Assembly (NCBI GenBank): GCA_027858995.1
Contig: JAQIBP010000054.1
Coordinates: 44,018 to 108,017, forward strand
From: Deltaproteobacteria bacterium
GTDB taxonomy: Bacteria; Desulfobacterota; Desulfobacteria; Desulfobacterales; Desulfobacteraceae
Direction of reading: 5' to 3'
Length of the DNA: 64,000 bases
Both the position numbers and the translations under genes were made by a program. The notes beneath the pieces are model-generated. The model worked only from the letters and a program-made list of their open reading frames with translations, made no database searches and was not told where the DNA came from. Of the stretch, positions 983-50,921 are shown piece by piece (position 1 is the stretch's first letter; the number at the start of each line of letters is the position of its first letter).

Positions 983-1040
983 TTTAAAAGGTTCTCTTTG
1001 TATGCTCTAAAGGCAAGTTGTGTAGTACTATCCTGACTAT

Positions 1041-1060
1041 ATTGTAGAATATTCTGCAAT
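1041..1060. promoter_or_regulatory. near-perfect palindrome ATTGTAGAATATTCTGCAAT, candidate enhancer/UAS
   Basis: 20-bp inverted repeat with one mismatched pair, extendable by one T/A pair (1040/1061); ~90 bp upstream of -24/-12 element. Confidence 0.55.
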
Positions 1061-1133
1061 AACCTGTTTTACTACTCTATCTGATTTTAATTTTGTTTTA
1101 TAATATCAATAAGTTATTGATAAATTTCCTTTC

Positions 1134-1149
1134 TGGCACAACATATGCA
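1134..1149 (+). promoter_or_regulatory. sigma-54 -24/-12 promoter TGGCACAACATATGCA
   Basis: Exact GG (1135-1136) to GC (1147-1148) spacing and TGGCAC/TGCA core; 78 bp upstream of the tolC-like start. Confidence 0.6.
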
Positions 1150-1226
1150 GAGTTTTATTGTATAATTAAAATTACCATTGAAAAATATTAATGTGATTTA
1201 TATTAAATTTAATAAAGGCAATAATT

Positions 1227-2603
1227 ATGAAACAAGTGATTTATCTGGCAGCCATGTTCTGGATCATTATTATATCTTTTCCCCAGGGTCTCTCCTTTGC
1301 CGACGATGCAAAAAGGATGGAAGGTGTTGGAAACAGGCTTTCAACCGAGATTTCTTTATCTGACTTGTTAAATTATGCCTATTTGAATAATCCTTCAATT
1401 ATTGCATCAAAACAAGACTGGAAAATTTCAATTGAAAATTACAACCTGGGTAAAAGTTATCCAGATCCCCAGATAATGAGTACATATTACCCATCACCAC
1501 TTGAAACCAGGCTTGGTCCACAGGATTGGAATTTGACATTGTCCCAGCAGTTTCCTTTTCCAGGCACCCTGTCACAAAAGGGCAAAGTCCTTGAATCCGA
1601 TGTGAAAATTTCAAAATTCAGACTGGATAAAACGGTCAGGGACATTGCCGCATCAATTATTATCTCTTTCCATGAACTTATATATGTTCAAAAGGCAAGC
1701 CATTTTGCTCAATCAAATTTCAAGCTTGCCCAGGAAATGTTAAAATTAAGTGAAAATCTTTATACAAATGACAAAGCTCTTTTTTATGACATTTCAAAGG
1801 CAAGGGCACAGACGGCACAGATCCAGTATGATATTCTCCTTTTAAAGGAGCTTGAGCAGAGTGAAAAAGCACGTATTAACACTCTCTTAAACAGAAATCC
1901 CCATGCCAGACTGGGAATTGCCAGGGATCTTGCTTTCAGAAAGGTTGTTTATGAAATTAGTGAAATCTATGAATTGTCCAGGGATAACCTGGAAAATATC
2001 CTGATTGCCGAGGAAAAGATCAACCAGTCTACCCAACGTATGAAACTTGCTAAGCTTGAGAATCTTCCATCATTTAAACTTGGCCTTTTTTATGCTTCAA
2101 TCGGAGATCCTGATGTTCCAACACCTCCGCCTGATGCTGGCGATGATGCCATTGGCATCCAGCTTGGTTTTAATATTCCTCTATGGTTAGGTAAAAACCA
2201 AAGCAGAACATCCATAGCCTTTGCCATGAAACAAAAAGCCAGGGCCCAAAAGCTTGAAATAATAAACAAAACCAGTGCCAAAATCAGCAGGCTCTGGTTC
2301 AAACTTCAAAATTCTAAAAGACTTATAACTCTTTATGCAAAAGAGATGATCCCCCAGTCATTAAGATCTGTCCAGACAGCAGAAACCTGGTATCGCCAGG
2401 GTGAGGGAAGTTTTTCAGATTTTCTGGAACTCCAGGCCACAGCCTATAATTTCCAGATATCCCTTGAACGGGCAAAAGCAGATTATGGAAAAACCCTTGT
2501 AAAACTTGAACTTTTCACAGGAGTTTCCCTTGACAAAAGAATAAGTGGTAAAAAAATAACTGGTAAAAAATCAATTGCTCCAAAAGGAGATGATAAATCA
2601 TGA
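1227..2603 (+). CDS. TolC-family outer membrane efflux protein
   Basis: Signal peptide; LSDLLNYAYLNNPSI..., repeated OEP coiled-coil pattern; first gene of RND operon. Confidence 0.88.
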   Translation: MKQVIYLAAMFWIIIISFPQGLSFADDAKRMEGVGNRLSTEISLSDLLNYAYLNNPSIIASKQDWKISIENYNLGKSYPDPQIMSTYYPSPLETRLGPQDWNLTLSQQFPFPGTLSQKGKVLESDVKISKFRLDKTVRDIAASIIISFHELIYVQKASHFAQSNFKLAQEMLKLSENLYTNDKALFYDISKARAQTAQIQYDILLLKELEQSEKARINTLLNRNPHARLGIARDLAFRKVVYEISEIYELSRDNLENILIAEEKINQSTQRMKLAKLENLPSFKLGLFYASIGDPDVPTPPPDAGDDAIGIQLGFNIPLWLGKNQSRTSIAFAMKQKARAQKLEIINKTSAKISRLWFKLQNSKRLITLYAKEMIPQSLRSVQTAETWYRQGEGSFSDFLELQATAYNFQISLERAKADYGKTLVKLELFTGVSLDKRISGKKITGKKSIAPKGDDKS

Positions 2604-4153
2604 AAACCAAATTATCATTAATATTCATAATATTAACCACATACACATCTTTTGTGTATGGGAATTATGACAATATGCATGAATCCCTGGAAAAATACCA
2701 GCCTCCTTTGTATTTCACAGAATCTTTAAAGTTTAAAGAGATAGAAAACAATTTTTATTTAAAATCTGATAAAGATTTATCACCTTTAATTGCAAGCATT
2801 GAGAAACTTAAGCTTGACTTTGAAAACAGAATTAAAAAAGACCGGAAAATTGAATTTTTATCAGATTATGACAATAAACTTTTTAAACATCTTCTAACCA
2901 CATCAGATAGTATCAAAGCAGTAAAAAAACTTGTAAAAAAGAAATTTTCCTTAGAAGAGATAGAAATTATTGCTGCTTTAAGAAACCCTGCAATTCTTGC
3001 AGCACAAAAAAAAGTCAAGGCAGAACTTGCTTCCTTTAATCAGATCATGGATCTTGATGAAAATTTAAGGCAGTACGCTGCATTTACAAAAGACCTTGAT
3101 AACAGTGCCGGACCATTAAAAATGAATGATTCCATTCAATCCGGATATCCCTATCCAGGAATGACTGCACTCAAAGGCCAGGTCATAAATTCCCAGGTTT
3201 CAATCCTGTTTGAAAAAATGAAAATTATTCAAAAAAATATTATCACCGATATAAGGAATTCCTTTTGGAACTTGATTTATATTGATAAAGCCTTTGACAT
3301 AACATCTGAAATAATAGAGGCTTTCAATCGCCTTAAAGCCGTGGCAACCATATTGTATAAAAGTGGAAAGACAAGTTTTCAGGATATCATCAAAATCAAC
3401 ATTAAAATATTTAAGTTAGATGAAGATCTTATTACGCTTACCCGCAAAAGAAAAAATATTGAAATAAAAATACTCGAACTTTTAAATCTCTCTGCTGATA
3501 CACTCGTAGGCCAACCTGTAAAGAAAAACACCCATAAAAAAATAGCTGGACCAACAGATCTTTATCCGGTGGCAAGACAACAAGGACAAGAACTTAAAGT
3601 CTTAAGGCTTTCCATTGCAAAAACTAAAAAAATGATAGAACTGGCTGAATCCATGATATTGCTGCCCTTTACCCTTAACCTCTCTTTAAATGAGGATGAT
3701 GCTGTTGCAAGTGTGGGAACAGGCGCCGATAGAATGCCCTTCCCGGAAAAAACCATGGCTTCAATGAAGAATGGCACTCCTGAAAAATCATGGTATGGGA
3801 TTGATGATCCATGGCTCAGGGAAACAAAACTTAAACTTTCAAGCCTGGAACACACCCTTGTAAAAGAAGAAAACAAAACAGACCGTATGATACAGGATGC
3901 CTGGTTCAATATGGATAAAAGCAATAGAGAGCTTGAATTATATGAATCAAAAATAAGACCGCTGGCAATATCTGCCCTTAATGTCTCAACAAGGGCATAT
4001 GAATCCGGATCAATTCCATTTTCAGATGCCATTGATTCATACACGTATTGGTTAAAGATAAAGCTTTTAATCGCACAGAAACATAAAGAGATTGGAACCA
4101 GTGTGGCAAAACTTGAAAATATTATGGGCAAGAGTTTTGAGGATGAAAAATAG
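2600..4153 (+). CDS. second, divergent TolC-like outer membrane efflux protein
   Basis: Signal peptide; OEP-like helical repeats, AYESGSIPFSDAIDSYTYWLKIK; overlaps the preceding stop by 4 nt. Confidence 0.75.
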   Translation: MKTKLSLIFIILTTYTSFVYGNYDNMHESLEKYQPPLYFTESLKFKEIENNFYLKSDKDLSPLIASIEKLKLDFENRIKKDRKIEFLSDYDNKLFKHLLTTSDSIKAVKKLVKKKFSLEEIEIIAALRNPAILAAQKKVKAELASFNQIMDLDENLRQYAAFTKDLDNSAGPLKMNDSIQSGYPYPGMTALKGQVINSQVSILFEKMKIIQKNIITDIRNSFWNLIYIDKAFDITSEIIEAFNRLKAVATILYKSGKTSFQDIIKINIKIFKLDEDLITLTRKRKNIEIKILELLNLSADTLVGQPVKKNTHKKIAGPTDLYPVARQQGQELKVLRLSIAKTKKMIELAESMILLPFTLNLSLNEDDAVASVGTGADRMPFPEKTMASMKNGTPEKSWYGIDDPWLRETKLKLSSLEHTLVKEENKTDRMIQDAWFNMDKSNRELELYESKIRPLAISALNVSTRAYESGSIPFSDAIDSYTYWLKIKLLIAQKHKEIGTSVAKLENIMGKSFEDEK

Positions 4154-4164
4154 AGGAGCTGATC

Positions 4165-5661
4165 ATGGTAAAAAAATATAAAACAAAATCCTTTTACATA
4201 ACGACTATTGTGGCAGCCCTGATAGCGATTTCTGCCTTGTTAACTTTGCCGGAAAGGAACAGCTTCAGTGCCGATTCAGATAATCATGACCAAAAACCTG
4301 CAGCCCGCAATACTTCTGTTCAAGATTCAAACCAGAAAAAAATAATCTATTGGCGGGCCCCCATGGACCCTTTTGAAATTTATGATGAACCAGGCCAGAG
4401 CAAAATGGGGATGGATCTTGTCCCTGTTTACGAGGACGATGCTGTAGATGATTCCGGTACAAAAGAGAGGAAAATAGTTTATTGGCGGGCCCCCATGGAT
4501 CCAAGCGAAACATATGAAAAACCCGGGAAAAGTAAAAAAGGTAAAAAACTTATCCCTGTGTATGAAGATGAGCTCATGGGAGGTGTTAATATTAAAATAG
4601 ACCCGGTGGTTGAGCAAAACATGGGTCTTATAACGGAAAAAGTTCAAAAAGGGCCTTTAAAACATACCATCAAGACCTATGGAAATATCACCTTTGATGA
4701 AACCAGGACTGGAGTGATCAGCCAGAAATTTGACGGATGGATAGAAAAACTTTATGCAGACTTTACAGGGTATTATGTAAAAAAAGGAGACCCATTGTAT
4801 GAAATTTATTCTCCGTTACTGCTTGCAGCCCAGGAAGAATACCTGTCTGCATTTAAAAACTATCAAACGCAAAAAACAGTTTTCAATAATGATATCTTAA
4901 ATTCTGCCCGCATGCGGTTGATGTATTTTGATATTGCAGACTTAGAAATAAAATCTATTGAAAAAACCAAACAGGTAAAAAAGACCATCATTATAAGGTC
5001 ACCTTTTACAGGTTTTGTAACCCGCAAAAATGCCGTGGAAGGATCTTTTGTTAAAACAGGGGCCAGTCTTTATACCATCTCAGATCTGTCCCATGTCTGG
5101 GTTGAAGCCCATATTTTTGAATATGAGCAAAACCTTGTTTTCAAAGGCCAGGAAGTTGAAATGACCCTCACCTATAACCCGGGCAAAGTATACAAAGGGA
5201 ATATCGCTTATATTTTCCCATATCTGCAGCAAAAAACAAGGGATGTCATAATCAGGATTGATTTTTTAAATGAGAACAATGAACTAAAGCCTGACATGTT
5301 TGCAAATATCAAAATTAAAACAACAGCTGATGAAAAGATCATTTATATCTCCTCCCAGTCAGTCATTTATTCCGGTAATAAGAAAATTGTTTTTGTGTCC
5401 AAGGGCAATGGAAAATACTCTCCCCGGGAAATCAGTACAGGTATCCATCTTGATGACGGTATGGTACAGATTTTAACCGGGCTTGCAAAGAATGAAATTG
5501 TTGTTACTTCAGGCCAGTTTCTTCTTGATTCCGAATCAAAACTCAAGGAAGCAGTTCAGAAAATGATTGAGGGCAAAAGAGGACCGACATCAAAAAAAAT
5601 TGAAGAAGATTTTTTCGATGATATGGGGTTTGAAGAAGATTTATTCGATAATATAGAATAA
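4165..5661 (+). CDS. efflux RND periplasmic adaptor (CusB/CzcB-like) with two N-terminal heavy-metal-binding repeats
   Basis: YWRAPMDPxExYxxPGxSKxGxxLxPVYED twice; HlyD-type barrel-sandwich (IIIRSPFTGFVTRKNAVEGSFVKTGASLYTISDLSHVWVEA). Confidence 0.9.
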   Translation: MVKKYKTKSFYITTIVAALIAISALLTLPERNSFSADSDNHDQKPAARNTSVQDSNQKKIIYWRAPMDPFEIYDEPGQSKMGMDLVPVYEDDAVDDSGTKERKIVYWRAPMDPSETYEKPGKSKKGKKLIPVYEDELMGGVNIKIDPVVEQNMGLITEKVQKGPLKHTIKTYGNITFDETRTGVISQKFDGWIEKLYADFTGYYVKKGDPLYEIYSPLLLAAQEEYLSAFKNYQTQKTVFNNDILNSARMRLMYFDIADLEIKSIEKTKQVKKTIIIRSPFTGFVTRKNAVEGSFVKTGASLYTISDLSHVWVEAHIFEYEQNLVFKGQEVEMTLTYNPGKVYKGNIAYIFPYLQQKTRDVIIRIDFLNENNELKPDMFANIKIKTTADEKIIYISSQSVIYSGNKKIVFVSKGNGKYSPREISTGIHLDDGMVQILTGLAKNEIVVTSGQFLLDSESKLKEAVQKMIEGKRGPTSKKIEEDFFDDMGFEEDLFDNIE

Positions 5662-5682
5662 TTAAAAACAGGGTAAAATTCA

Positions 5683-8600
5683 ATGATAGAAAAAATAATA
5701 GTATGGTCAATAAAAAACAGATTCATGGTTATCATTATGACCCTGTTCATCATTGTGGCAGGAATCCTTGCCATGCTGAAAACACCTCTTGATGCCATTC
5801 CAGACCTGTCTGATGTCCAGGTAATCGTGTACACTGAATACCCTGGTCAGGCCCCACAGGTTGTTGAAGACCAGGTGACATACCCTCTTACCACTGCTAT
5901 GCTCAGTGTTCCCTATGCAAAGGTTGTCAGGGGATACTCCTTTTTTGGATATTCCTTTGTATATCTTATCTTTGAAGACGGAACAGACATATACTGGGCA
6001 AGATCAAGAGTTATGGAATATCTTAATTTTGTTTCAGGAAGGTTGCCTGCAGGTGTAACTCCAAGTCTTGGGCCAGATGCCACAGGTGTTGGCTGGATAT
6101 ATGAATATGTATTAAAAGACACCACTGGTCAAAATGATCTGCAAAAACTTCGATCCATCCAGGACTGGTTTTTAAGATATGAATTAACTGCTGTGCCAGG
6201 TGTTTCAGAAGTTGCCAGCATTGGAGGATTTGTTAAACAATACCAGGTGGAAGTTGATCCCAATAAACTGGTTTCATACGATATTCCCATCTCAAAAATA
6301 AAAAATGCCATTAAAAAGTCCAATTCCGATGTCGGGGGAAAACTTATTGAAATGGGGGAAACCGAATTCATGGTACGGGGCCTTGGATATATACAATCCC
6401 TTGAAGACATAAAAAACATTGTCATCTCCTCTGACGAAAAAGGTACCCCTATTCTTTTAAAAGACATTGCCGATATCCATATCGGGCCGGAGTTAAGGCG
6501 CGGTATCCTTGAATGGAATGGTGAAGGAGAGATTGTGGGTGGTGTTGTAATTATGAGATATGGGGAAAATGCCCTTGAAGTAATAAAAAAGGTAAAACTC
6601 AAACTTGCACAACTCCAAGATGGCCTTCCTGAAGGTGTTGAAATCCTGACAGGATATGACCGTTCCTCCCTTATCCAAAGAGCTGTTGAAACCCTTAAAA
6701 CAAAACTTACCGAAGAGATGATTGTGGTGGCTCTGATATGCATTTTGTTCCTTTTGCATTTCAGATCTGCCTTTGTTGCTATTTTCACCCTTCCCGTTGG
6801 GATTTTGATGTCTTTTCTGATCATGTATCTTCTTGGAATCAATGCCAACATCATGAGCCTGGGCGGTATTGCAATTGCCATAGGAGTTATGGTGGATGCC
6901 TCCATTGTTCTGGTGGAAAATGCCCACAAACACCTGGAAAGAGACAGGGATAAAAAAAACCATACACAGATTATTATTGACGCGTCAAAAGAAGTAGGCC
7001 CTGCCCTTTTTTTCTCTCTATTGATTATTACAATCTCATTTCTTCCTGTATTCAGTCTCACAGAACAATCAGGAAGGCTTTTCAAACCCCTTGCCTATAC
7101 CAAAACAACTGCCATGGCAGCCTCTTCTCTGCTTGCGATTACCATTATCCCGGTTCTCATGACCTTTTTTGTAAAAGAGAACCCCATTGACCCTGAGTTC
7201 TCCAGGAAGAAGAAAACATGGATCTGGATAATGACTCTTGCAGGACCGCCGGCTCTGGTTTTCCTTGCAGGTCTTTTTGGAATCAATCTTCCTGACTACA
7301 GCCTTGTACTGGCATTTGGCGTTTCAATATTGCTTTACTTTTGTCTTTGTCCCCAGAAAATAATTTCAGAAAAGAAAAATCCCATATCCAAAAGTTTAAT
7401 CCGGCTTTATCTTCCCTTGATAAGAGTTGTTTTAAAATGGCGGAAAACAACCATTCTTGTTGCTTTGCTTGCCCTTGCAGTCACCTGGTATCCAATGTCC
7501 CGTATAGGAAGTGAATTCATGCCTCCTCTAAATGAAGGGGACCTTCTTTATATGCCCACAACCCTGCCCGGTATATCCATTACCAAGGCCAAAGAACTTT
7601 TGCAGCAGACAGATAAAATTATTCAAAAATTTCCGGAAGTTGAAACCGTCCTGGGTAAAATAGGCCGGGCAGAAACCTCAACCGATCCAGCTCCCCTTTC
7701 AATGATAGAAACAGTAGTCACGCTTAGGCCCCAGGTCCAACATGAAATTATTTTACATGATCGTTTTTTTTCAGACTGGCCCGGGTGGCTTAAAAAACCT
7801 CTTACCTTTATATGGCCTGAACAATATAAAGGGGTAATCCTCCACGAGTGGAGAAAAAAATATATTAATCGTTTTTTTTCAAACTGGCCCGGATTTTTAA
7901 AAACTCCTTTGTCATGGATAATGCCCGAGGAGAGATACATTACAATAAAAGAGCTTGCCAATGATCTTGATAAGGCTGTGAAATTTCCAGGGCTTACAAA
8001 TGCCTGGACAATGCCTATAAAAACCCGGATTGATATGCTGTCAACGGGCATAAAAACTCCTGTGGGCATCAAAATCATGGGGCCTGATCTTGGCACCCTG
8101 TCCAAAATCGGGGAAAACATAGAAGCATTCCTGAGAAATCAACCAGGCACCTTGTCTGTATTCTCAGAACGTGTCACAGGAGGTAATTATCTGGATTTTA
8201 AAATTAACCGTGAAAACATTGCCCGTTATGGACTTTTTGTCCAGGATGTGCAGGATATTATCACAACTGCCATAGGTGGAATGAATGTTACCGATACTGT
8301 TGAAGGCCTTGAAAGATATCCTGTCAACTTAAGGTACAACCGTGAGTTCAGGGACAATATTTACATGCTGAAAAGGGTCCGGGTATCAACACCAACAGGA
8401 GCCCAGATTCCCCTTACCCAGCTTGCAGATATATCTATCCACAAAGGCCCTGCAGGCATTAAAACCGAAAATTCAAAAAAAACTGCCTGGATATATATAG
8501 ATCTCAAAGGCATTGATATAGGTACATATGTTAAAAATACAAAAAAACTGGTTGAAGAGAAGATTCAACTGCCTTCAGGATATTCAATTGTATGGTCAGG

Positions 8601-9150
8601 CCAGTATGAATACATGGAAAAAGCAAGAAAAACCCTGAACATCATAGTTCCGGCAACCCTGCTTGTGATTTTTTTACTTCTTTATATTCATTTTAAAAAT
8701 TTTGTAGAAGTTATCATAGTAATGGCAAGCCTGCCATTTGCACTGCTTGGAGGGATCTGGCTTATTTATATGCTTGGCTACAACTTTTCGGTTGCCGTTG
8801 GTGTGGGATTTATCGCACTTGCAGGACTTGCAACTGAAACCGGTATAGTCATGCTTGTTTATCTTGATGCAACATTTAAAAAGAACAGAGAAGCAAAAAA
8901 AATGAGCTCTTCAATTGAGCTTTTTGATTCAATTATTGAAGGTGCTGTGGAAAGGGTCAGACCTTTAATTATGACCGTTGCAACAACTTTGATAGGCCTT
9001 TTGCCTGTAATGTACGGGTCTGGGGCCGGTTCACAGATAATGAAACGAATAGCAGCACCAATGGTTGGCGGCCTTGTTTCATCAACCATAATGACTCTTA
9101 TTATCATTCCTGTGGCCTATAATTTGTGGAAAATAAGAACAATTAAATAG
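5683..9150 (+). CDS. CusA/CzcA family heavy-metal efflux RND transporter
   Basis: 1155 aa; MIEKIIVWSIKNRFMVI, TPLDAIPDLSDVQVIVYTEYPGQAPQVVEDQVTYPLTTAMLSVP, RIDMLSTGIKTPVGIKI; 12-TM RND layout. Confidence 0.95.
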   Translation: MIEKIIVWSIKNRFMVIIMTLFIIVAGILAMLKTPLDAIPDLSDVQVIVYTEYPGQAPQVVEDQVTYPLTTAMLSVPYAKVVRGYSFFGYSFVYLIFEDGTDIYWARSRVMEYLNFVSGRLPAGVTPSLGPDATGVGWIYEYVLKDTTGQNDLQKLRSIQDWFLRYELTAVPGVSEVASIGGFVKQYQVEVDPNKLVSYDIPISKIKNAIKKSNSDVGGKLIEMGETEFMVRGLGYIQSLEDIKNIVISSDEKGTPILLKDIADIHIGPELRRGILEWNGEGEIVGGVVIMRYGENALEVIKKVKLKLAQLQDGLPEGVEILTGYDRSSLIQRAVETLKTKLTEEMIVVALICILFLLHFRSAFVAIFTLPVGILMSFLIMYLLGINANIMSLGGIAIAIGVMVDASIVLVENAHKHLERDRDKKNHTQIIIDASKEVGPALFFSLLIITISFLPVFSLTEQSGRLFKPLAYTKTTAMAASSLLAITIIPVLMTFFVKENPIDPEFSRKKKTWIWIMTLAGPPALVFLAGLFGINLPDYSLVLAFGVSILLYFCLCPQKIISEKKNPISKSLIRLYLPLIRVVLKWRKTTILVALLALAVTWYPMSRIGSEFMPPLNEGDLLYMPTTLPGISITKAKELLQQTDKIIQKFPEVETVLGKIGRAETSTDPAPLSMIETVVTLRPQVQHEIILHDRFFSDWPGWLKKPLTFIWPEQYKGVILHEWRKKYINRFFSNWPGFLKTPLSWIMPEERYITIKELANDLDKAVKFPGLTNAWTMPIKTRIDMLSTGIKTPVGIKIMGPDLGTLSKIGENIEAFLRNQPGTLSVFSERVTGGNYLDFKINRENIARYGLFVQDVQDIITTAIGGMNVTDTVEGLERYPVNLRYNREFRDNIYMLKRVRVSTPTGAQIPLTQLADISIHKGPAGIKTENSKKTAWIYIDLKGIDIGTYVKNTKKLVEEKIQLPSGYSIVWSGQYEYMEKARKTLNIIVPATLLVIFLLLYIHFKNFVEVIIVMASLPFALLGGIWLIYMLGYNFSVAVGVGFIALAGLATETGIVMLVYLDATFKKNREAKKMSSSIELFDSIIEGAVERVRPLIMTVATTLIGLLPVMYGSGAGSQIMKRIAAPMVGGLVSSTIMTLIIIPVAYNLWKIRTIK

Positions 9151-9174
9151 CATTATATTAAAAGGAGCCTTTCA

Positions 9175-9663
9175 ATGAAAAAGCAATTTAAATTAATTAT
9201 CAGTGCAGTACTTTTGTCCATTGTTTTCATGACAGGATATGCCTTGGCCATGGAGGGAAATGATATGGATGAATCAGAAAAAATAGGAGACCTTATCCAT
9301 GAGTCAGTCATTGACGGGTATGTTCTCTCCCATTACTTCATGGATCTTCGCGATCAGAAAACAGCAAGCCATGCTGATGATACCAAAATCGGCACTCCGA
9401 ACTTGGATAAAGAAGAGATGGACAAACCCCATCACATCATGGTTTACATCATGGACAAAGACCATAATCCTGTTTTAAAGGGAAAAGTTGGTTTCATGAT
9501 AAAAGATGCTGCCAACAATAAACAAACAGCAATGGGAATGTTCATGAGCAAAGGTTTCGGCACAACTGCCGACATGAAAAAAAAGGGGAGTTATACTATT
9601 TTCACCAAAATTGTTTTAGAAAACAAGATCTTAAAAGACAGCTTTAAGTATGAAATAAATTGA
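9175..9663 (+). CDS. small secreted Met/His-rich protein of the metal efflux operon
   Basis: Signal peptide (LIISAVLLSIVFMTGYALA), many Met/His; 24 nt after cusA-like gene. Confidence 0.65.
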   Translation: MKKQFKLIISAVLLSIVFMTGYALAMEGNDMDESEKIGDLIHESVIDGYVLSHYFMDLRDQKTASHADDTKIGTPNLDKEEMDKPHHIMVYIMDKDHNPVLKGKVGFMIKDAANNKQTAMGMFMSKGFGTTADMKKKGSYTIFTKIVLENKILKDSFKYEIN

Positions 9664-9840: not shown

Positions 9841-11022
9841 ATGATTAGATTATGTAAAATACCAATAATGGTTTTAATCTTGATATGTTTCATTGGAAGT
9901 TTTTCTTGGGCCGGATTCAAATTTAAAATTAATGATAGCACAAAAGGAGAAATTGATTTTTGGACCCAAGCTTGGTATCAATATGCTGAAAAAGCCAGTG
10001 ATAGTAACGGAGATAATATTCTGGATGAAGATGTTAATGATTTTATGATCCGAAGAGCATATTTCAGCATCAGCGGTGAGTCAACACCATATCTAAGTTT
10101 TTTTACTCATATTGCCGCAGACAGGATCGGTCAAAACAATCTGAATGATTCTTCATTGGGCCTTGGAAGCGGGGTTGCATTTAGGGATCTATGGATTACA
10201 CTCAAACCATCCGATGCCTTAAAACTTCAAGTAGGGCGAATGTATGTTCCCTTTACACGAAATTACGGTACCACATCAACAAAATCTCTTCTTACAACAG
10301 ACCTCGACTGGGCCCAGGGAGGAATAAGAGGTAATATTTTTTATCCCAGTAAGGTTGGTCGTGATGATGGCGCCACTCTTTGGGGGAACCTCATGGAAGA
10401 TAAGTTTCAATATCGGTTTATGGTTGGTGAAGGTGTTGAAAACACCTCGCAAAATCCTGATGATAATTTAAGATTTGCGGGAAGAATCAGTGCCAATTTT
10501 TTTGATGCTGAAACCGGTTGGTTCAATCAAGGTACTTATTTGGGTAAGAAACGAATTCTTGCTATAGGTTTTGGAGCCGATTCGCAAGAATTGGTATTTG
10601 GATCCCGGACTGATGACTATTTAGCTTGGACCGTAGACGTTCACTATGATCAACCTTTAAGCAATGGAGGAGCTATCACTGCTGAAGCTGCCTACATTGA
10701 TATTGAGAATGTAGCCAATAGTATAAAATACACCCAACTTGTGCCCGGAGATAACGGTTCAATCGTTTCTTTGAAAGCTGGGTATCTCTTTCCCGGTAAT
10801 TTTGGTATAGGCAGGCTTCAACCCTTTGCTCATTATGAACTTATTAACGTAGATAAAACAGGTAAAGACGACACACAGGTATATGGTTTGGGTTTAAACT
10901 ATTTTTTCAAAGGACATGCAAATAAATTGAGCTTAGATATTTCAAACGTTGATCAAGAACAGGAAACGATATCTGTACAGGATCATTTTGTTGTTACAGT
11001 TCAAATTGCCGCAGGTTTCTAA
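9841..11022 (+). CDS. outer membrane porin (phosphate-selective porin O/P-like)
   Basis: Signal peptide, beta-barrel-like alternation, RRAYFSISGESTPYLSFFTHIAADRIG, C-terminal aromatic (AAGF). Confidence 0.7.
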   Translation: MIRLCKIPIMVLILICFIGSFSWAGFKFKINDSTKGEIDFWTQAWYQYAEKASDSNGDNILDEDVNDFMIRRAYFSISGESTPYLSFFTHIAADRIGQNNLNDSSLGLGSGVAFRDLWITLKPSDALKLQVGRMYVPFTRNYGTTSTKSLLTTDLDWAQGGIRGNIFYPSKVGRDDGATLWGNLMEDKFQYRFMVGEGVENTSQNPDDNLRFAGRISANFFDAETGWFNQGTYLGKKRILAIGFGADSQELVFGSRTDDYLAWTVDVHYDQPLSNGGAITAEAAYIDIENVANSIKYTQLVPGDNGSIVSLKAGYLFPGNFGIGRLQPFAHYELINVDKTGKDDTQVYGLGLNYFFKGHANKLSLDISNVDQEQETISVQDHFVVTVQIAAGF

Positions 11023-16646: not shown

Positions 16647-18023
16647 TTAAGGCATAACACCGAAATCCTTTAGTTTTAAATGCAGCGTTCTCCGGGCAAT
16701 CCCCAAACGACGAGCGGTTTCACTTTTATTGTTACCGGTTTTATCCAACATTTTTAATATGGCCATTTTTTCGACTTCATATAAGGTTTTGTCTCCCAGA
16801 TCAAACATCTGTTCAGTAGCACTTTGCGCCCTGCTGGACATTATTACCTTCTCTTCAATTTGAAGTTCATCTTTCCCAAGGTATTCCCGAGTGGAGAGGA
16901 TCACACCCCTTTCTATGGTGTTCATCAGTTCACGGACATTGCCCGGCCAGTTATGGCTGACGAGCTTATCCATGCCATCCGGGGTAAACCCTTTAATTTT
17001 CCGACTGTTTTTTTGGGTATATAGTTGTAAAAAATGCTGGGCCAACAGTTGTATATCCCCGGATCTTTCCCGTAAAGTCGGCACCTTAAGATTAATCACA
17101 TTTAAACGGTAGTATAGATCTTCTCTGAAATCTTCCTTTTCAATGAGATCCACCAGATTTTTATTGGTCGCAGCAATAATACGTGTATCAATATTAATAG
17201 ATTTTTCACCACCCACCGGTGTGATTTCTCTCTCCTGCAATGCTCGGAGCAGTTTAACCTGCATAGCCATTGATGTTTCACTGATCTCATCTAAAAATAT
17301 ACTTCCTTTATCTGCTAGTTGGAATTTCCCTTCTTTCCGACGAGTAGCACCTGTAAACGCCCCTTTTTCATGACCAAACAACTCTGATTCCAGAAGAGTC
17401 TCTGTAATGGCAGCGCAGTTAATCTTGATAAACGGACCATCTTTTCTGTTACTGTTATAGTGGACCGCACCTGCGATCAACTCCTTGCCTGTACCAGATT
17501 CACCATGTATTAAAACAGTGGCGTCGGTTCCAGCCACCTGGGATATGGTCTTGAGAAGCTTTCGCATTGTTTCATGTCTGCCGATAATTTTGCTGCTGTC
17601 AAATTTTTTCCCAAGGCTATCCTTTAACTGGGAATTCTCTTTTTTCAACCGGGTATGTTCAAGGGAGCGCTGGATAGTAATTTTTAATTTTTCAAAATCA
17701 AAGGGTTTAGTCAGATAATCATATGCCCCTTTTTGCAATGCATCGACAGCTGTTTGAATTGAAGAAAAAGCAGTCATGATGATAACCGGGATGGCCGGGT
17801 TGATCTTTTTTATCTCTTCCAAGGCAACAAGTCCGGATACTTTGATCATTTTAATATCCATTAAAATCAGATCATAGGTTTTTTTTGTCACACACTCTAT
17901 GGCAACCTGACCGTCATCTGCCTCTTCGAGAACATAGCCCCATTTGCCAAGCAATATTTTCAGCATATTTCGATGGCTCTGGTCATCATCAACGATCAAA
18001 ATTGTGCTTTTGGTCTGATTCAT
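16647..18023 (-). CDS. NtrC/ZraR-type sigma-54-dependent response regulator
   Basis: Receiver (ILIVDDDQSHR, ILMDIKM), GESGTGKE, GAFTGA, C-term HTH (NKSETARRLGIARRTLHLKL). Confidence 0.95.
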   Translation of the reverse strand: MNQTKSTILIVDDDQSHRNMLKILLGKWGYVLEEADDGQVAIECVTKKTYDLILMDIKMIKVSGLVALEEIKKINPAIPVIIMTAFSSIQTAVDALQKGAYDYLTKPFDFEKLKITIQRSLEHTRLKKENSQLKDSLGKKFDSSKIIGRHETMRKLLKTISQVAGTDATVLIHGESGTGKELIAGAVHYNSNRKDGPFIKINCAAITETLLESELFGHEKGAFTGATRRKEGKFQLADKGSIFLDEISETSMAMQVKLLRALQEREITPVGGEKSINIDTRIIAATNKNLVDLIEKEDFREDLYYRLNVINLKVPTLRERSGDIQLLAQHFLQLYTQKNSRKIKGFTPDGMDKLVSHNWPGNVRELMNTIERGVILSTREYLGKDELQIEEKVIMSSRAQSATEQMFDLGDKTLYEVEKMAILKMLDKTGNNKSETARRLGIARRTLHLKLKDFGVMP

Positions 18024-19769
18024 TTAAGATGTCTCCATGGGTAAAATAATAGAAAAGACGGTTCCTTTCCCGGGTTCGCTTTTTACATCTATCCTGCCCT
18101 TATGCGCCTTGATGATATTATGAACAATGGCAAGTCCAAGCCCGGTCCCGGATATTTTTGTGGTGAAATATGGTTCAAAGATATTGTCTGATTTGTTTGT
18201 TTCCATGCCGCATCCTGTATCTGAAACTATGATTATGATGTTTTCAGCAGTTTTAGATTTTTTAAGTTGAATATCAAGATTCCCTGATCCATCCATTGCC
18301 TGTAATGCATTGAGGCATAAATTCAACACTACTTGTTTCAGCCTGTCCGCATCTGCATGGATCTTAGGTAAATTTGTCTCAACCTTGGTTTTAATAGTGA
18401 TATTCTCGGCACCAGGTTCATAGCTGATAAGCTGTGTGCATTCTAAAACAAGCGCTTCAAGGTCAATGGGTTTGCCTGAAACCGCCACTGGTTTTGCCAG
18501 TTCAACAAGTTCACTCACCACGCGGTTAAGCCGGTCCACCTCTTTTGTCATGACATCTGCAATGCCATAATTTTCCGACCCTGCATCAAAGGTTTCCTTA
18601 AAAAAGGTGGCATACCCTTTTAAGGAACTTAGCGGGTTTCTTATTTCATGGGCCACCCCTGCTGCCAACCTGCCAATGGCAGCAAGCCTCTTATTATGTT
18701 CCATTTCAGTTTTCAAGCGGTTCAACTCGGTTTTATCCCTTAAAATCAGCAAAGCTCCTAAGGGATCGCCTTGTTTATCATACAGTGGGCTGGCTATAAC
18801 ATCGAGAATAATTGTCATATCTATCATATCTTTAATGTGAATCTCTTTTTCAACCAGATCTTTTGTGTTCCAGATTGATGCCAGCATTTTTTCAATCTCC
18901 CCAGGAATGAGCGCGGCAATATTTCCGGCTCTATCATCAGGTTTGCTACTAAGAATTGACGAGGCTGCAGGGTTGACTGAAAGAATCTGATTATTCATGT
19001 CAATTGCAATCAATCCAACAGGCATATTTTCCACCAGATTGTCTGAAAAAATCTGTATCTTAGAGAGAGAAGACCTGGTTTGTGCATAGCGCTGGACAAT
19101 AAAAACAAGGACAAACCCTGTGAAACCGATCAATGCCAGGATTACTGCCATCATTATCGTGTGCTGTGTATCACTTTTATCTGCCTGGACAATCGATTCC
19201 ATATCAAGCCCCACAAAAATAACTGTATTTTCATAGGTATCAGTCTTTTTAAATGTATTTGCATGCATCCTTTGGTGCATTGTCATCATTCCCCTTGAAC
19301 CGGACATTCCTGTTCGATTTGTGGGGGAAAACTTCTTATGGACTTCAAAAACTTTGCTGCCCTTGTTATCTGTTATAATTCGCCAGACAGACTGTTTGGC
19401 ATTCATTAGGGTTTTAAAATCCAGTTTTCTGCCATAGGCCATTCCAATTTTCTCTTTTTGATTGTGGGCAAGGGTAATACCGTCCTGATTCACAAGAAAC
19501 AGGTAGGCAATATCGGGCAGTGCTGCTGTCTCACTGAGGAGGTTCTCCATGGCACTGCTGCTCCAACCCATATTCATCATGCCGGTATATGTGCCAGCTT
19601 CAAATGCCCTGATCAGAGCTGTGCTTTTTTCAAGCAACAATTTTATGCTCTGGGCTTTTTGTTTGTTGATCCTGTCAATGGTCATAAAAACAAAAATTGG
19701 AAAGATAACAATAATGGTACCGATAAGAATAAGCGGTGGAATGCCTGTTGTAAATTTTAAATTTTTCAT
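18024..19769 (-). CDS. sensor histidine kinase, ZraS-like, with PAS
   Basis: Two TMs, Met-rich extracytoplasmic region, PAS, GVAHEIRNPLSSLKGYATFF, NLCLNALQAM, GTGLGLAIVHNII; abuts regulator. Confidence 0.92.
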   Translation of the reverse strand: MKNLKFTTGIPPLILIGTIIVIFPIFVFMTIDRINKQKAQSIKLLLEKSTALIRAFEAGTYTGMMNMGWSSSAMENLLSETAALPDIAYLFLVNQDGITLAHNQKEKIGMAYGRKLDFKTLMNAKQSVWRIITDNKGSKVFEVHKKFSPTNRTGMSGSRGMMTMHQRMHANTFKKTDTYENTVIFVGLDMESIVQADKSDTQHTIMMAVILALIGFTGFVLVFIVQRYAQTRSSLSKIQIFSDNLVENMPVGLIAIDMNNQILSVNPAASSILSSKPDDRAGNIAALIPGEIEKMLASIWNTKDLVEKEIHIKDMIDMTIILDVIASPLYDKQGDPLGALLILRDKTELNRLKTEMEHNKRLAAIGRLAAGVAHEIRNPLSSLKGYATFFKETFDAGSENYGIADVMTKEVDRLNRVVSELVELAKPVAVSGKPIDLEALVLECTQLISYEPGAENITIKTKVETNLPKIHADADRLKQVVLNLCLNALQAMDGSGNLDIQLKKSKTAENIIIIVSDTGCGMETNKSDNIFEPYFTTKISGTGLGLAIVHNIIKAHKGRIDVKSEPGKGTVFSIILPMETS

Positions 19770-31332: not shown

Positions 31333-31911
31333 TTAATAATTTTCAGGATTTAATTCAAAGTGAGCCTTTGGGTGGGCACAGGCCGGACATGTATCGGGAG
31401 GCTCATTTCCTTCATGGTTATATCCACAGTTCCTGCATCGCCATTTCACATTCATTTCTCTTTTAAATACACGATCTTTTTCAATATTCTCCACAAGGGC
31501 AAGATATCTCTGCTCATGGTAAAGCTCGGCTACAGCGATGGATGCAAAGGTTGTTGCAATATCATTAAATCCCTCTTCTCTTGCCTTGGCTGCAAACTCT
31601 GGATACATGGATGTATTTTCATAGTGTTCACCAGCAGCAGAAGCCTTGAGATTGTCCACTGTTGCTCCAATATTGCCAGCTGGAAAACCTGCTGTGATTT
31701 CTACCTCTTCGCCTGACTCCAGATACTTGAACAGTCTTTTAGCATGCTCTTTTTCATGGTTTGCAGTCTCTTCAAAAATAGATTGAATCTGGACATACCC
31801 CTCTTTTTTTGCCTGTGAAGCAAAGTAGGTATATCGGTTGCGTGCCTGTGATTCCCCTGCAAAAGCAGTTAACAAATTCTTTTGGGTTTGTGTTCCTTCT
31901 AATTTTGCCAT
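31333..31911 (-). CDS. rubrerythrin
   Basis: ESQARNRYTYFASQAKKEGY, FEETANHEKEHAKRLF, WRCRNCGYNHEGNEPPDTCPACAHPKAHFEL. Confidence 0.95.
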   Translation of the reverse strand: MAKLEGTQTQKNLLTAFAGESQARNRYTYFASQAKKEGYVQIQSIFEETANHEKEHAKRLFKYLESGEEVEITAGFPAGNIGATVDNLKASAAGEHYENTSMYPEFAAKAREEGFNDIATTFASIAVAELYHEQRYLALVENIEKDRVFKREMNVKWRCRNCGYNHEGNEPPDTCPACAHPKAHFELNPENY

Positions 31912-40088: not shown

Positions 40089-40667
40089 ATGACAAAATTA
40101 AAAGGAACACAAACTCAAAAAAATTTGTTAACTGCTTTTGCAGGGGAATCACAGGCACGCAACCGATATACCTACTTTGCTTCACAGGCAAAAAAAGAAG
40201 GCTATGTCCAGATTCAATCTATTTTTGAAGAGACTGCAAACCATGAAAAAGAGCATGCTAAACGACTGTTCAAGTATCTGAAGTCAGGCGAAGAAGTCGA
40301 AATCACAGCAGGTTTTCCAGCCGGCACTATTGGATCAACAGTGAACAATCTCAAGGCTTCTGCTGGTGGCGAAAACTATGAAAATACATCCATGTATCCT
40401 GGGTTTGCAGCCACGGCAAGAGAAGAGGGATTCAATGATATTGCAACAACCTTTGCATCCATTGCTGTAGCCGAACTTTACCATGAGAAGAGATTTCTTG
40501 CCCTTGTGGAGAATATTGAAAAGGATCGTGTATTTAAAAGAGAAATGAATGTGAAATGGCGATGCAGGAACTGTGGATATAACCATGAAGGAAATGAACC
40601 ACCTGGTGTATGTCCGGCTTGTGCCCACCCAAAAGCTCACTTTGAATTAATTCCTGAAAATTATTAG
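40089..40667 (+). CDS. rubrerythrin, near-identical paralogue of 31333-31911
   Basis: 192 aa aligned end to end with few substitutions. Confidence 0.95.
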   Translation: MTKLKGTQTQKNLLTAFAGESQARNRYTYFASQAKKEGYVQIQSIFEETANHEKEHAKRLFKYLKSGEEVEITAGFPAGTIGSTVNNLKASAGGENYENTSMYPGFAATAREEGFNDIATTFASIAVAELYHEKRFLALVENIEKDRVFKREMNVKWRCRNCGYNHEGNEPPGVCPACAHPKAHFELIPENY

Positions 40668-47732: not shown

Positions 47733-47860
47733 ATCACTGCCCTCCTTATCATTGATCTATACTTTTGTTTTATCTGCTTTAATCTTAATACCTCTCTTAA
47801 GTTTTAATATCTTTGATTGCATATTTGGTGCCAGACAAAACAAATATTTTCAGCAGCAAA

Positions 47861-49772: not shown

Positions 49773-50921
49773 ATGATGACGATGAAATATAATTTTGACG
49801 AAATAATCAACAGAACCCACACATCTTCAATGAAGTGGGAAAAATACAGAGGCAGAGACATAATTCCCATGTGGGTGGCTGATATGGATTTCAAAGCACC
49901 TCAGCCTCTTCTTGATACTCTCCGGCAAAGTATTGAACATGGAATCATGGGGTATACTCTCATCCCTGACAAACTAAATGAACTCATTATTGAAAATCTC
50001 TATACTCTCTATGATTGGAAAATTGAAAAAGAGTGGCTCATATGGACTCCCGGAGTTGTAAGTGCGTTAAATGTTGCCTGTGCAGTCTGCGGTTCCTCCT
50101 TTGATAAAATTGTTACAACAACTCCTGCATATCCTCCCTTTCTCACTGCTCCCTCAAATCATGGAAAGCTTCTTGCAACTGTTCCCATGATTGAAATCAA
50201 TCAGCGTGCAGCCCTTGATTATCACGCACTTGAAAAAGAATTTAAAAGCAATAATACCAGCCTTTTCATGTTCTGCAACCCGTACAACCCGTGCGGCAGT
50301 GTCTTTACAAAAGATGAAATAAATCAGCTTGTAGAACTTTGTACAAAATATGATGTTATCATCTGCTCAGATGAAATACACAGCGATTTTGTACTGGATC
50401 AGAATAAGTACCATATTCCGACAGCATCTATATCAAAAACAGCTGCAAACCAGACCATTACTTTAATGGCTCCTTCCAAAACATATAATATCCCTGGGCT
50501 TGGATGTTCTTTTGCCATTATTCAGGATGAAAATTTAAGGAAAAAATTCAAATCCAGATCAAAGGGTTTGATCCCTGAAGTAAACCTTCTCGGACTTTTT
50601 GCAACCAAGACTGCCTACAAAGAGTGTCATGAATGGCTTGCACAGTTAATTGTCTATCTTAGAAAAAATCGCGATATTGTTCAAGAGCATATAAATAAAA
50701 TGCCGGGGTGCAGACTCAACCCCATTGAATCCACCTATCTTGCCTGGATTGATGTAAAAGATACCAATATAGACGATCCCATAGCTTTTTTTGAACAGGC
50801 AGGAGTAGGTCTTTCAGATGGTAAATTTTTCGGTCAAAAAGGATTTGTCCGGCTCAATTTCGGCTGTCCCAGATCTGTTCTTGAAAAAGGTTTAAGAAGA
50901 ATGGCTGCTGCGCTTTTATAA
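49773..50921 (+). CDS. MalY/PatB family PLP-dependent C-S lyase/aminotransferase
   Basis: SMKWEKYRGRDIIPMWVADMDFKAP, CNPYNPCGSVF, SDEIHSDFV, SPSKTYNIPGL-like Lys motif. Confidence 0.93.
   Translation: MMTMKYNFDEIINRTHTSSMKWEKYRGRDIIPMWVADMDFKAPQPLLDTLRQSIEHGIMGYTLIPDKLNELIIENLYTLYDWKIEKEWLIWTPGVVSALNVACAVCGSSFDKIVTTTPAYPPFLTAPSNHGKLLATVPMIEINQRAALDYHALEKEFKSNNTSLFMFCNPYNPCGSVFTKDEINQLVELCTKYDVIICSDEIHSDFVLDQNKYHIPTASISKTAANQTITLMAPSKTYNIPGLGCSFAIIQDENLRKKFKSRSKGLIPEVNLLGLFATKTAYKECHEWLAQLIVYLRKNRDIVQEHINKMPGCRLNPIESTYLAWIDVKDTNIDDPIAFFEQAGVGLSDGKFFGQKGFVRLNFGCPRSVLEKGLRRMAAALL

Follow-up and report, generated by a model that had tools for sequence, protein, structure and literature searches.

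A candidate sigma-54 promoter with an upstream dyad in front of a CusA-type efflux operon in Desulfobacteraceae and its likely two-component regulator

In Escherichia coli, the copper/silver pump encoded by cusCFBA is controlled by the CusSR two-component system, with CusR being an OmpR-type regulator that acts with sigma-70. Another two-component system of the same species, ZraSR, is a sigma-54-dependent metal system with zinc as its signal. The closest functional precedent found for the locus described here is CorSR of Myxococcus xanthus, compared at the level of the published description. Deletion of CorSR abolishes copper induction of the curA copper-tolerance operon; the response regulator carries a sigma-54 interaction domain, a cupredoxin is among the targets, and the CorSR genes are located inside their own target operon together with those for a P-type ATPase and a multicopper oxidase (PMC3707914). 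In the sigma-54 regulome of Desulfovibrio vulgaris, sigma-54 activators are numerous and genome comparison predicted AT-rich palindromic sites for them; neither "copper" nor "efflux" occurs in the main text of that study (PMC4641369). No matching copper circuit was found in the literature searched on Desulfovibrio regulators, which is weak evidence of novelty since the coverage of that search is incomplete.

The locus compared with these systems lies at the beginning of a 64,000-nucleotide stretch of DNA, hereafter the window, from a member of the Desulfobacteraceae (assembly GCA_027858995.1, contig JAQIBP010000054.1, positions 44,018 to 108,017). It resembles CusSR/cusCFBA in that the pump belongs to the same CusA-type family and has the same Met triad, and differs from it in the predicted use of sigma-54 and an NtrC-type regulator. 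Like CorSR, the two-component pair proposed here, encoded on another contig (C2) of the same genome, includes a response regulator with a sigma-54 interaction domain and has a cupredoxin among its predicted targets. In contrast to CorSR, this pair has a CusA-type pump as its predicted target, is not linked to the cus operon in most genomes and includes a kinase with a small membrane sensor, whereas CorS has a periplasmic sensor and a HAMP domain. As for ZraSR, it is resembled by a second pair, encoded in the window at 16647-19769, while the C2 regulator scores higher with the AtoC model than with the ZraR model and is far under the cut-off of the latter.

The efflux operon and the elements in front of it

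The operon occupies positions 1227-9663 on the plus strand. Its first gene, tolC1 (1227-2603), and the second one, tolC2 (2600-4153), code for outer-membrane efflux proteins of the TolC family and are followed by genes coding for a CusB-like adaptor with a heavy-metal-binding domain (4165-5661), a CusA-type RND metal pump of the CusA/CzcA family (5683-9150), and a small protein of 162 aa without a Pfam match, which is conserved behind cusA (9175-9663). Among the structures compared, the pump gave its best alignment with the solved CusA, and the residues aligned to CusA M573, M623 and M672 are all methionine. In CusA, this triad serves the handling of copper(I) and silver(I), so that its presence here favours copper(I) or silver(I) over zinc, cobalt or cadmium as the substrate. 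Directly after the operon, at 9841-11022, there is a gene for a porin matching the NCBIfam model of ExtI, the porin of a selenite/tellurite reduction operon, with 160.4 bits, just above the cut-off of 150. Just before the operon lies a gene coding for a 594-aa protein with HAMP and adenylate/guanylate cyclase domains (L049:13216-15000), the C-terminus of which is encoded at 44-982 of the window.

A sigma-54 -24/-12 promoter is predicted upstream of tolC1 at 1134-1149 on the plus strand (TGGCACAACATATGCA), with GG-N10-GC spacing and one mismatch to the pattern TGGCAC-N5-TTGCA; going by the usual -24/-12 spacing, transcription is expected to start at about 1159-1161. The predicted upstream activator dyad at 1040-1061 (TATTGTAGAATATTCTGCAATA, with the core TGTAGAATATTCTGCA at 1043-1058) is 22 bp long, gapless and has one mismatched pair, and there are 83 bp from its centre to the first base of the -24 element. 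A preliminary description of this DNA had proposed both elements, and the dyad with its one mismatched pair as well as the -24/-12 spacing were confirmed at these positions. The sigma-54 gene itself is encoded in the genome (PF04552 match, 204.9 bits). Between the dyad and the promoter there is a doubtful IHF-like site at 1104-1116 on the plus strand (TATCAATAAGTTA) matching the consensus exactly, as do about 1% of shuffles; a conserved IHF site at this location was rejected, given that relatives do not keep TATCAATAAGTTA.

Taken alone, neither the dyad nor the promoter is remarkable, because their counts in the window fall within chance: there are three promoter-like sites with at most one mismatch against 1.9 expected, a number reached in 28 of 100 shuffles, and four 22-bp dyads with at most one mismatched pair against about 1.1 expected, with simulated sequence giving up to five. 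A further good -24/-12 match is located at 47818-47833 on the minus strand (TGGCACCAAATATGCA). Two more dyads, one at 50330 of the window with three mismatches and the other on contig C48 inside an ORF, were taken as chance occurrences. The window also has short identical sequences at 31543-31842 and 40158-40457, placed on opposite strands (TGCAACAACCTTTGCA, AGGTATATCGGTTGCG), which suggests an inverted duplication with copies about 8-9 kb apart.

It is conservation at orthologous operons, together with the regulon context described below, that lifts the dyad and the promoter above chance. Phylogenetic footprinting upstream of homologous operons, a check named in the preliminary description, was performed with orthologous cus-type operons from related genomes (Desulfobacula and near relatives). 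All eight of the genomes G023, G011, G014, G003, G008, G007, G018 and G001 have, upstream of tolC1, a -24/-12 site as well as a dyad resembling TGTAGAATATTCTACA. Both are also kept before the cus operon of G013 and in G034, in which the promoter is separated from tolC1 by an additional signalling gene, while the cus promoter of G028 has the dyads together with a weaker -12 element (TTGA) and a longer spacing. In ten genomes, this one included, a -24/-12 site of the same spacing is located 55-78 bp before the tolC1 start, the -12 element being ATGC and not TTGC in most genomes, and the sequence around the dyad and the promoter has drifted among relatives. No such dyad was found at the cus-type operons of the four genomes without a C2-type regulator (G026, G027, G033 and G044). 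The proposal of a sigma-54-type promoter with an enhancer-type dyad before the efflux operon is thus supported by its conservation among relatives.

The centre of the dyad is located 80-84 bp before the -24 element in 9 of the 11 cus promoters. G018 has the dyad at 94 bp, G007 a weaker extra copy at 104 bp, and G034 copies at 79 and 101 bp; in the cupredoxin operons discussed below, the distance is 116-117 bp. Most of these steps are about 10-11 bp or a multiple of it, which fits looping activation from one helix face, if we infer it correctly, and the cus promoters have their dyads within the range of about 80-200 bp upstream on a constant helical face.

The C2 two-component pair and its predicted targets

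In this genome, a pattern search for the dyad gave three sites with at most one mismatch: 1040-1061 of the window, C2:12820, followed at 22 bp by a second, weaker copy, and C18:18208. The C2 dyads sit between an operon coding for HMA, FtrD-like, FtsX-type and ABC proteins and the gene of an NtrC-family response regulator (L066:6862-8202) with receiver, sigma-54-interacting AAA+ and Fis-type HTH domains, beside which there is a gene coding for a kinase with a small membrane sensor (L066:8214-9389). The C2-type regulator was found in 23 of the 291 genomes sampled from the class, and its HTH is nearly invariant among orthologues. We counted the loci in which a third or more of the regulator gene was available (a 58-residue fragment in L122 being set aside), and 29 of these 30 have the dyad next to the regulator, usually with tandem copies at 22 bp and, in other genomes, mostly arranged as on C2; the only locus without a dyad nearby belongs to G140 and is on a 4-kb contig. 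In G034, the kinase and regulator genes diverge from the cus operon, and the region separating them contains the dyads and the promoter. The association extends to 11 genomes of other genera, families and orders, where all ten matches to a degenerate dyad are located either beside the regulator (within about 1.3 kb) or before a cus operon, the reversed control pattern giving one match.

As an independent test, the 250 bp preceding each cus promoter were scanned with a weight matrix whose training set consisted solely of sites next to the C2-type regulator. The dyad was recovered in 11 of 11 cus promoters, at scores that no more than 1 of 1000 shuffles attained, as well as in all four cupredoxin-operon promoters; the window dyad at 1040-1061 scores 24.4 of 25.4, a value reached by 0 of 1000 shuffles. 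The C2 regulator is present in 12/12 genomes with the dyad at the cus operon vs 0/4 without it (p = 0.0005, a guide only, as are all co-occurrence p values here, the genomes being related). This count takes G013 as having the regulator; it has the dyad, its contig ends just past FtsX, and the regulator gene was not found in it.

The conserved set of five genes beside the regulator (L066:3287-6635) codes for an HMA protein, which is HMA/CopZ-like, an FtrD-like protein, an unknown 145-aa protein, an FtsX-type permease and an ABC ATPase, and is possibly a metal or haem/iron-sulfur transport system. Along with the dyad, it carries a conserved TGGCAC-N5-TTGA-type site of its own. A cupredoxin/cytochrome operon on contig C18 (L067:1513-8099) is likewise preceded by this dyad and a -24/-12 site; it consists of genes coding for a 119-aa protein, a CuA/cupredoxin-like protein, a multihaem cytochrome, a copper-binding-like protein, DsbD-type and thioredoxin-type proteins and a 4Fe-4S membrane protein; in four genomes, operons of this type have the dyad together with either TGGTATTGTTCTTGCT or TGGTATCGTTCTTGCT. 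In G023, G011 and G008, a separate dyad and -24/-12 site belong to the HAMP-type signalling gene located upstream of the cus operon (L031:9171-11056, L032:10246-12131 and L035:2803-4752), and for its counterpart in this genome, L049:13216-15000, no dyad of its own was found. No convincing promoter was seen at the expected distance from the dyad sites in L118, L123, L125 and L127.

While the genomes directly show both elements, how they are conserved and spaced, and that the dyad is associated with the regulator, the circuit itself is a prediction from sequence. Most probably, the sigma-54 promoter and enhancer at 1040-1149 are run by the C2 two-component pair in response to a metal signal and drive the tolC1-tolC2-cusB-cusA-162aa operon. 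The C2 kinase would sense the metal, most likely excess copper(I) or silver(I), and the phosphorylated regulator would bind the dyad TGTAGAATATTCTRCA, after which the DNA would loop and the AAA+ domain of the regulator would open the sigma-54 promoter of the operon. The same regulator would also drive the neighbouring HMA/FtrD-like/FtsX/ABC operon and the cupredoxin/cytochrome operon.

It is from the target genes that we infer a metal signal, and copper or silver is the likely one because of the CusA Met triad and the HMA/CopZ-like and cupredoxin-like targets. The same targets speak against the possibility, which we consider rather unlikely, that the promoter, the dyad and the C2 regulator work as proposed and the signal is another thiophilic metal, redox or envelope stress, as might be suggested by the small membrane sensor of the kinase, which has no recognised metal-binding domain, and by the abundance of cytochrome and thioredoxin-type proteins in one of the target operons.

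Other candidate regulators and the proposed regulon

The preliminary description had pointed to an NtrC-type sigma-54 activator with its kinase at 16647-19769 as completing the circuit. Such a ZraSR/AtoSC-like pair is present on the minus strand, consisting of an NtrC-family response regulator (16647-18023) and a histidine kinase (18024-19769), although its scores with the curated models are below the cut-offs (510 bits vs 760 for ZraR and 414 vs 479 for ZraS). It is a proper activator-kinase pair that follows the operon after about 7 kb; in G003, the pair and the cus operon share a contig. Despite that, its assignment to the promoter at 1134-1149 found no support. Orthologues of its regulator (at least 76% identity) occur in G003, G004, G005, G011, G014, G018 and in part G013, but are absent from G023, G007, G008, G001, G034 and G028, all of which keep the dyad, and this gives a co-occurrence of 6/12 genomes with the dyad vs 0/4 without it, which is not significant (p = 0.23). 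The zraSR loci contain no dyad save one weak match in L131, and the HTH with its recognition helix differs from that of the C2 regulator. With orthologues missing from half of the 12 dyad genomes and its own loci lacking the dyad, the window pair was rejected as the regulator of this promoter, and it is very unlikely that it binds the dyad and activates transcription there. The sites L128:9001-9016 (G014) and L131:2711-2726 (G018) just before zraS are -24/-12-like, and the window-type pair may itself be under sigma-54; a binding site of its own was not found at the zraSR loci.

Binding of an unrelated repressor or metal sensor to the dyad in place of an enhancer-binding protein, with a fortuitous -24/-12 match, hardly deserves credence, for even though each element taken singly is within chance in the window, the two are conserved jointly, with the dyad a long way upstream of the start and at a constant spacing in phase with the helix, and across families the presence of the dyad goes with that of a sigma-54 activator gene.

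Returning to the C2 pair as the preferred regulator, we lean, by a small degree, towards a hitherto undescribed sigma-54 regulon for copper/silver in the Desulfobacteraceae and their relatives, with its own dyad and sensor type, which would coordinate the Cus-type pump, the HMA/FtrD-like/FtsX/ABC operon, the cupredoxin/cytochrome operon and, in some genomes, the HAMP-type signalling gene before the pump operon. The activator nearest to the promoter in the window is not its likely partner, and it is the genomic neighbours of the motif that identify another regulator. For marine sulfate reducers, this would pin down the components of a metal response: the exact cis-site, the promoter, the regulator and a list of targets.
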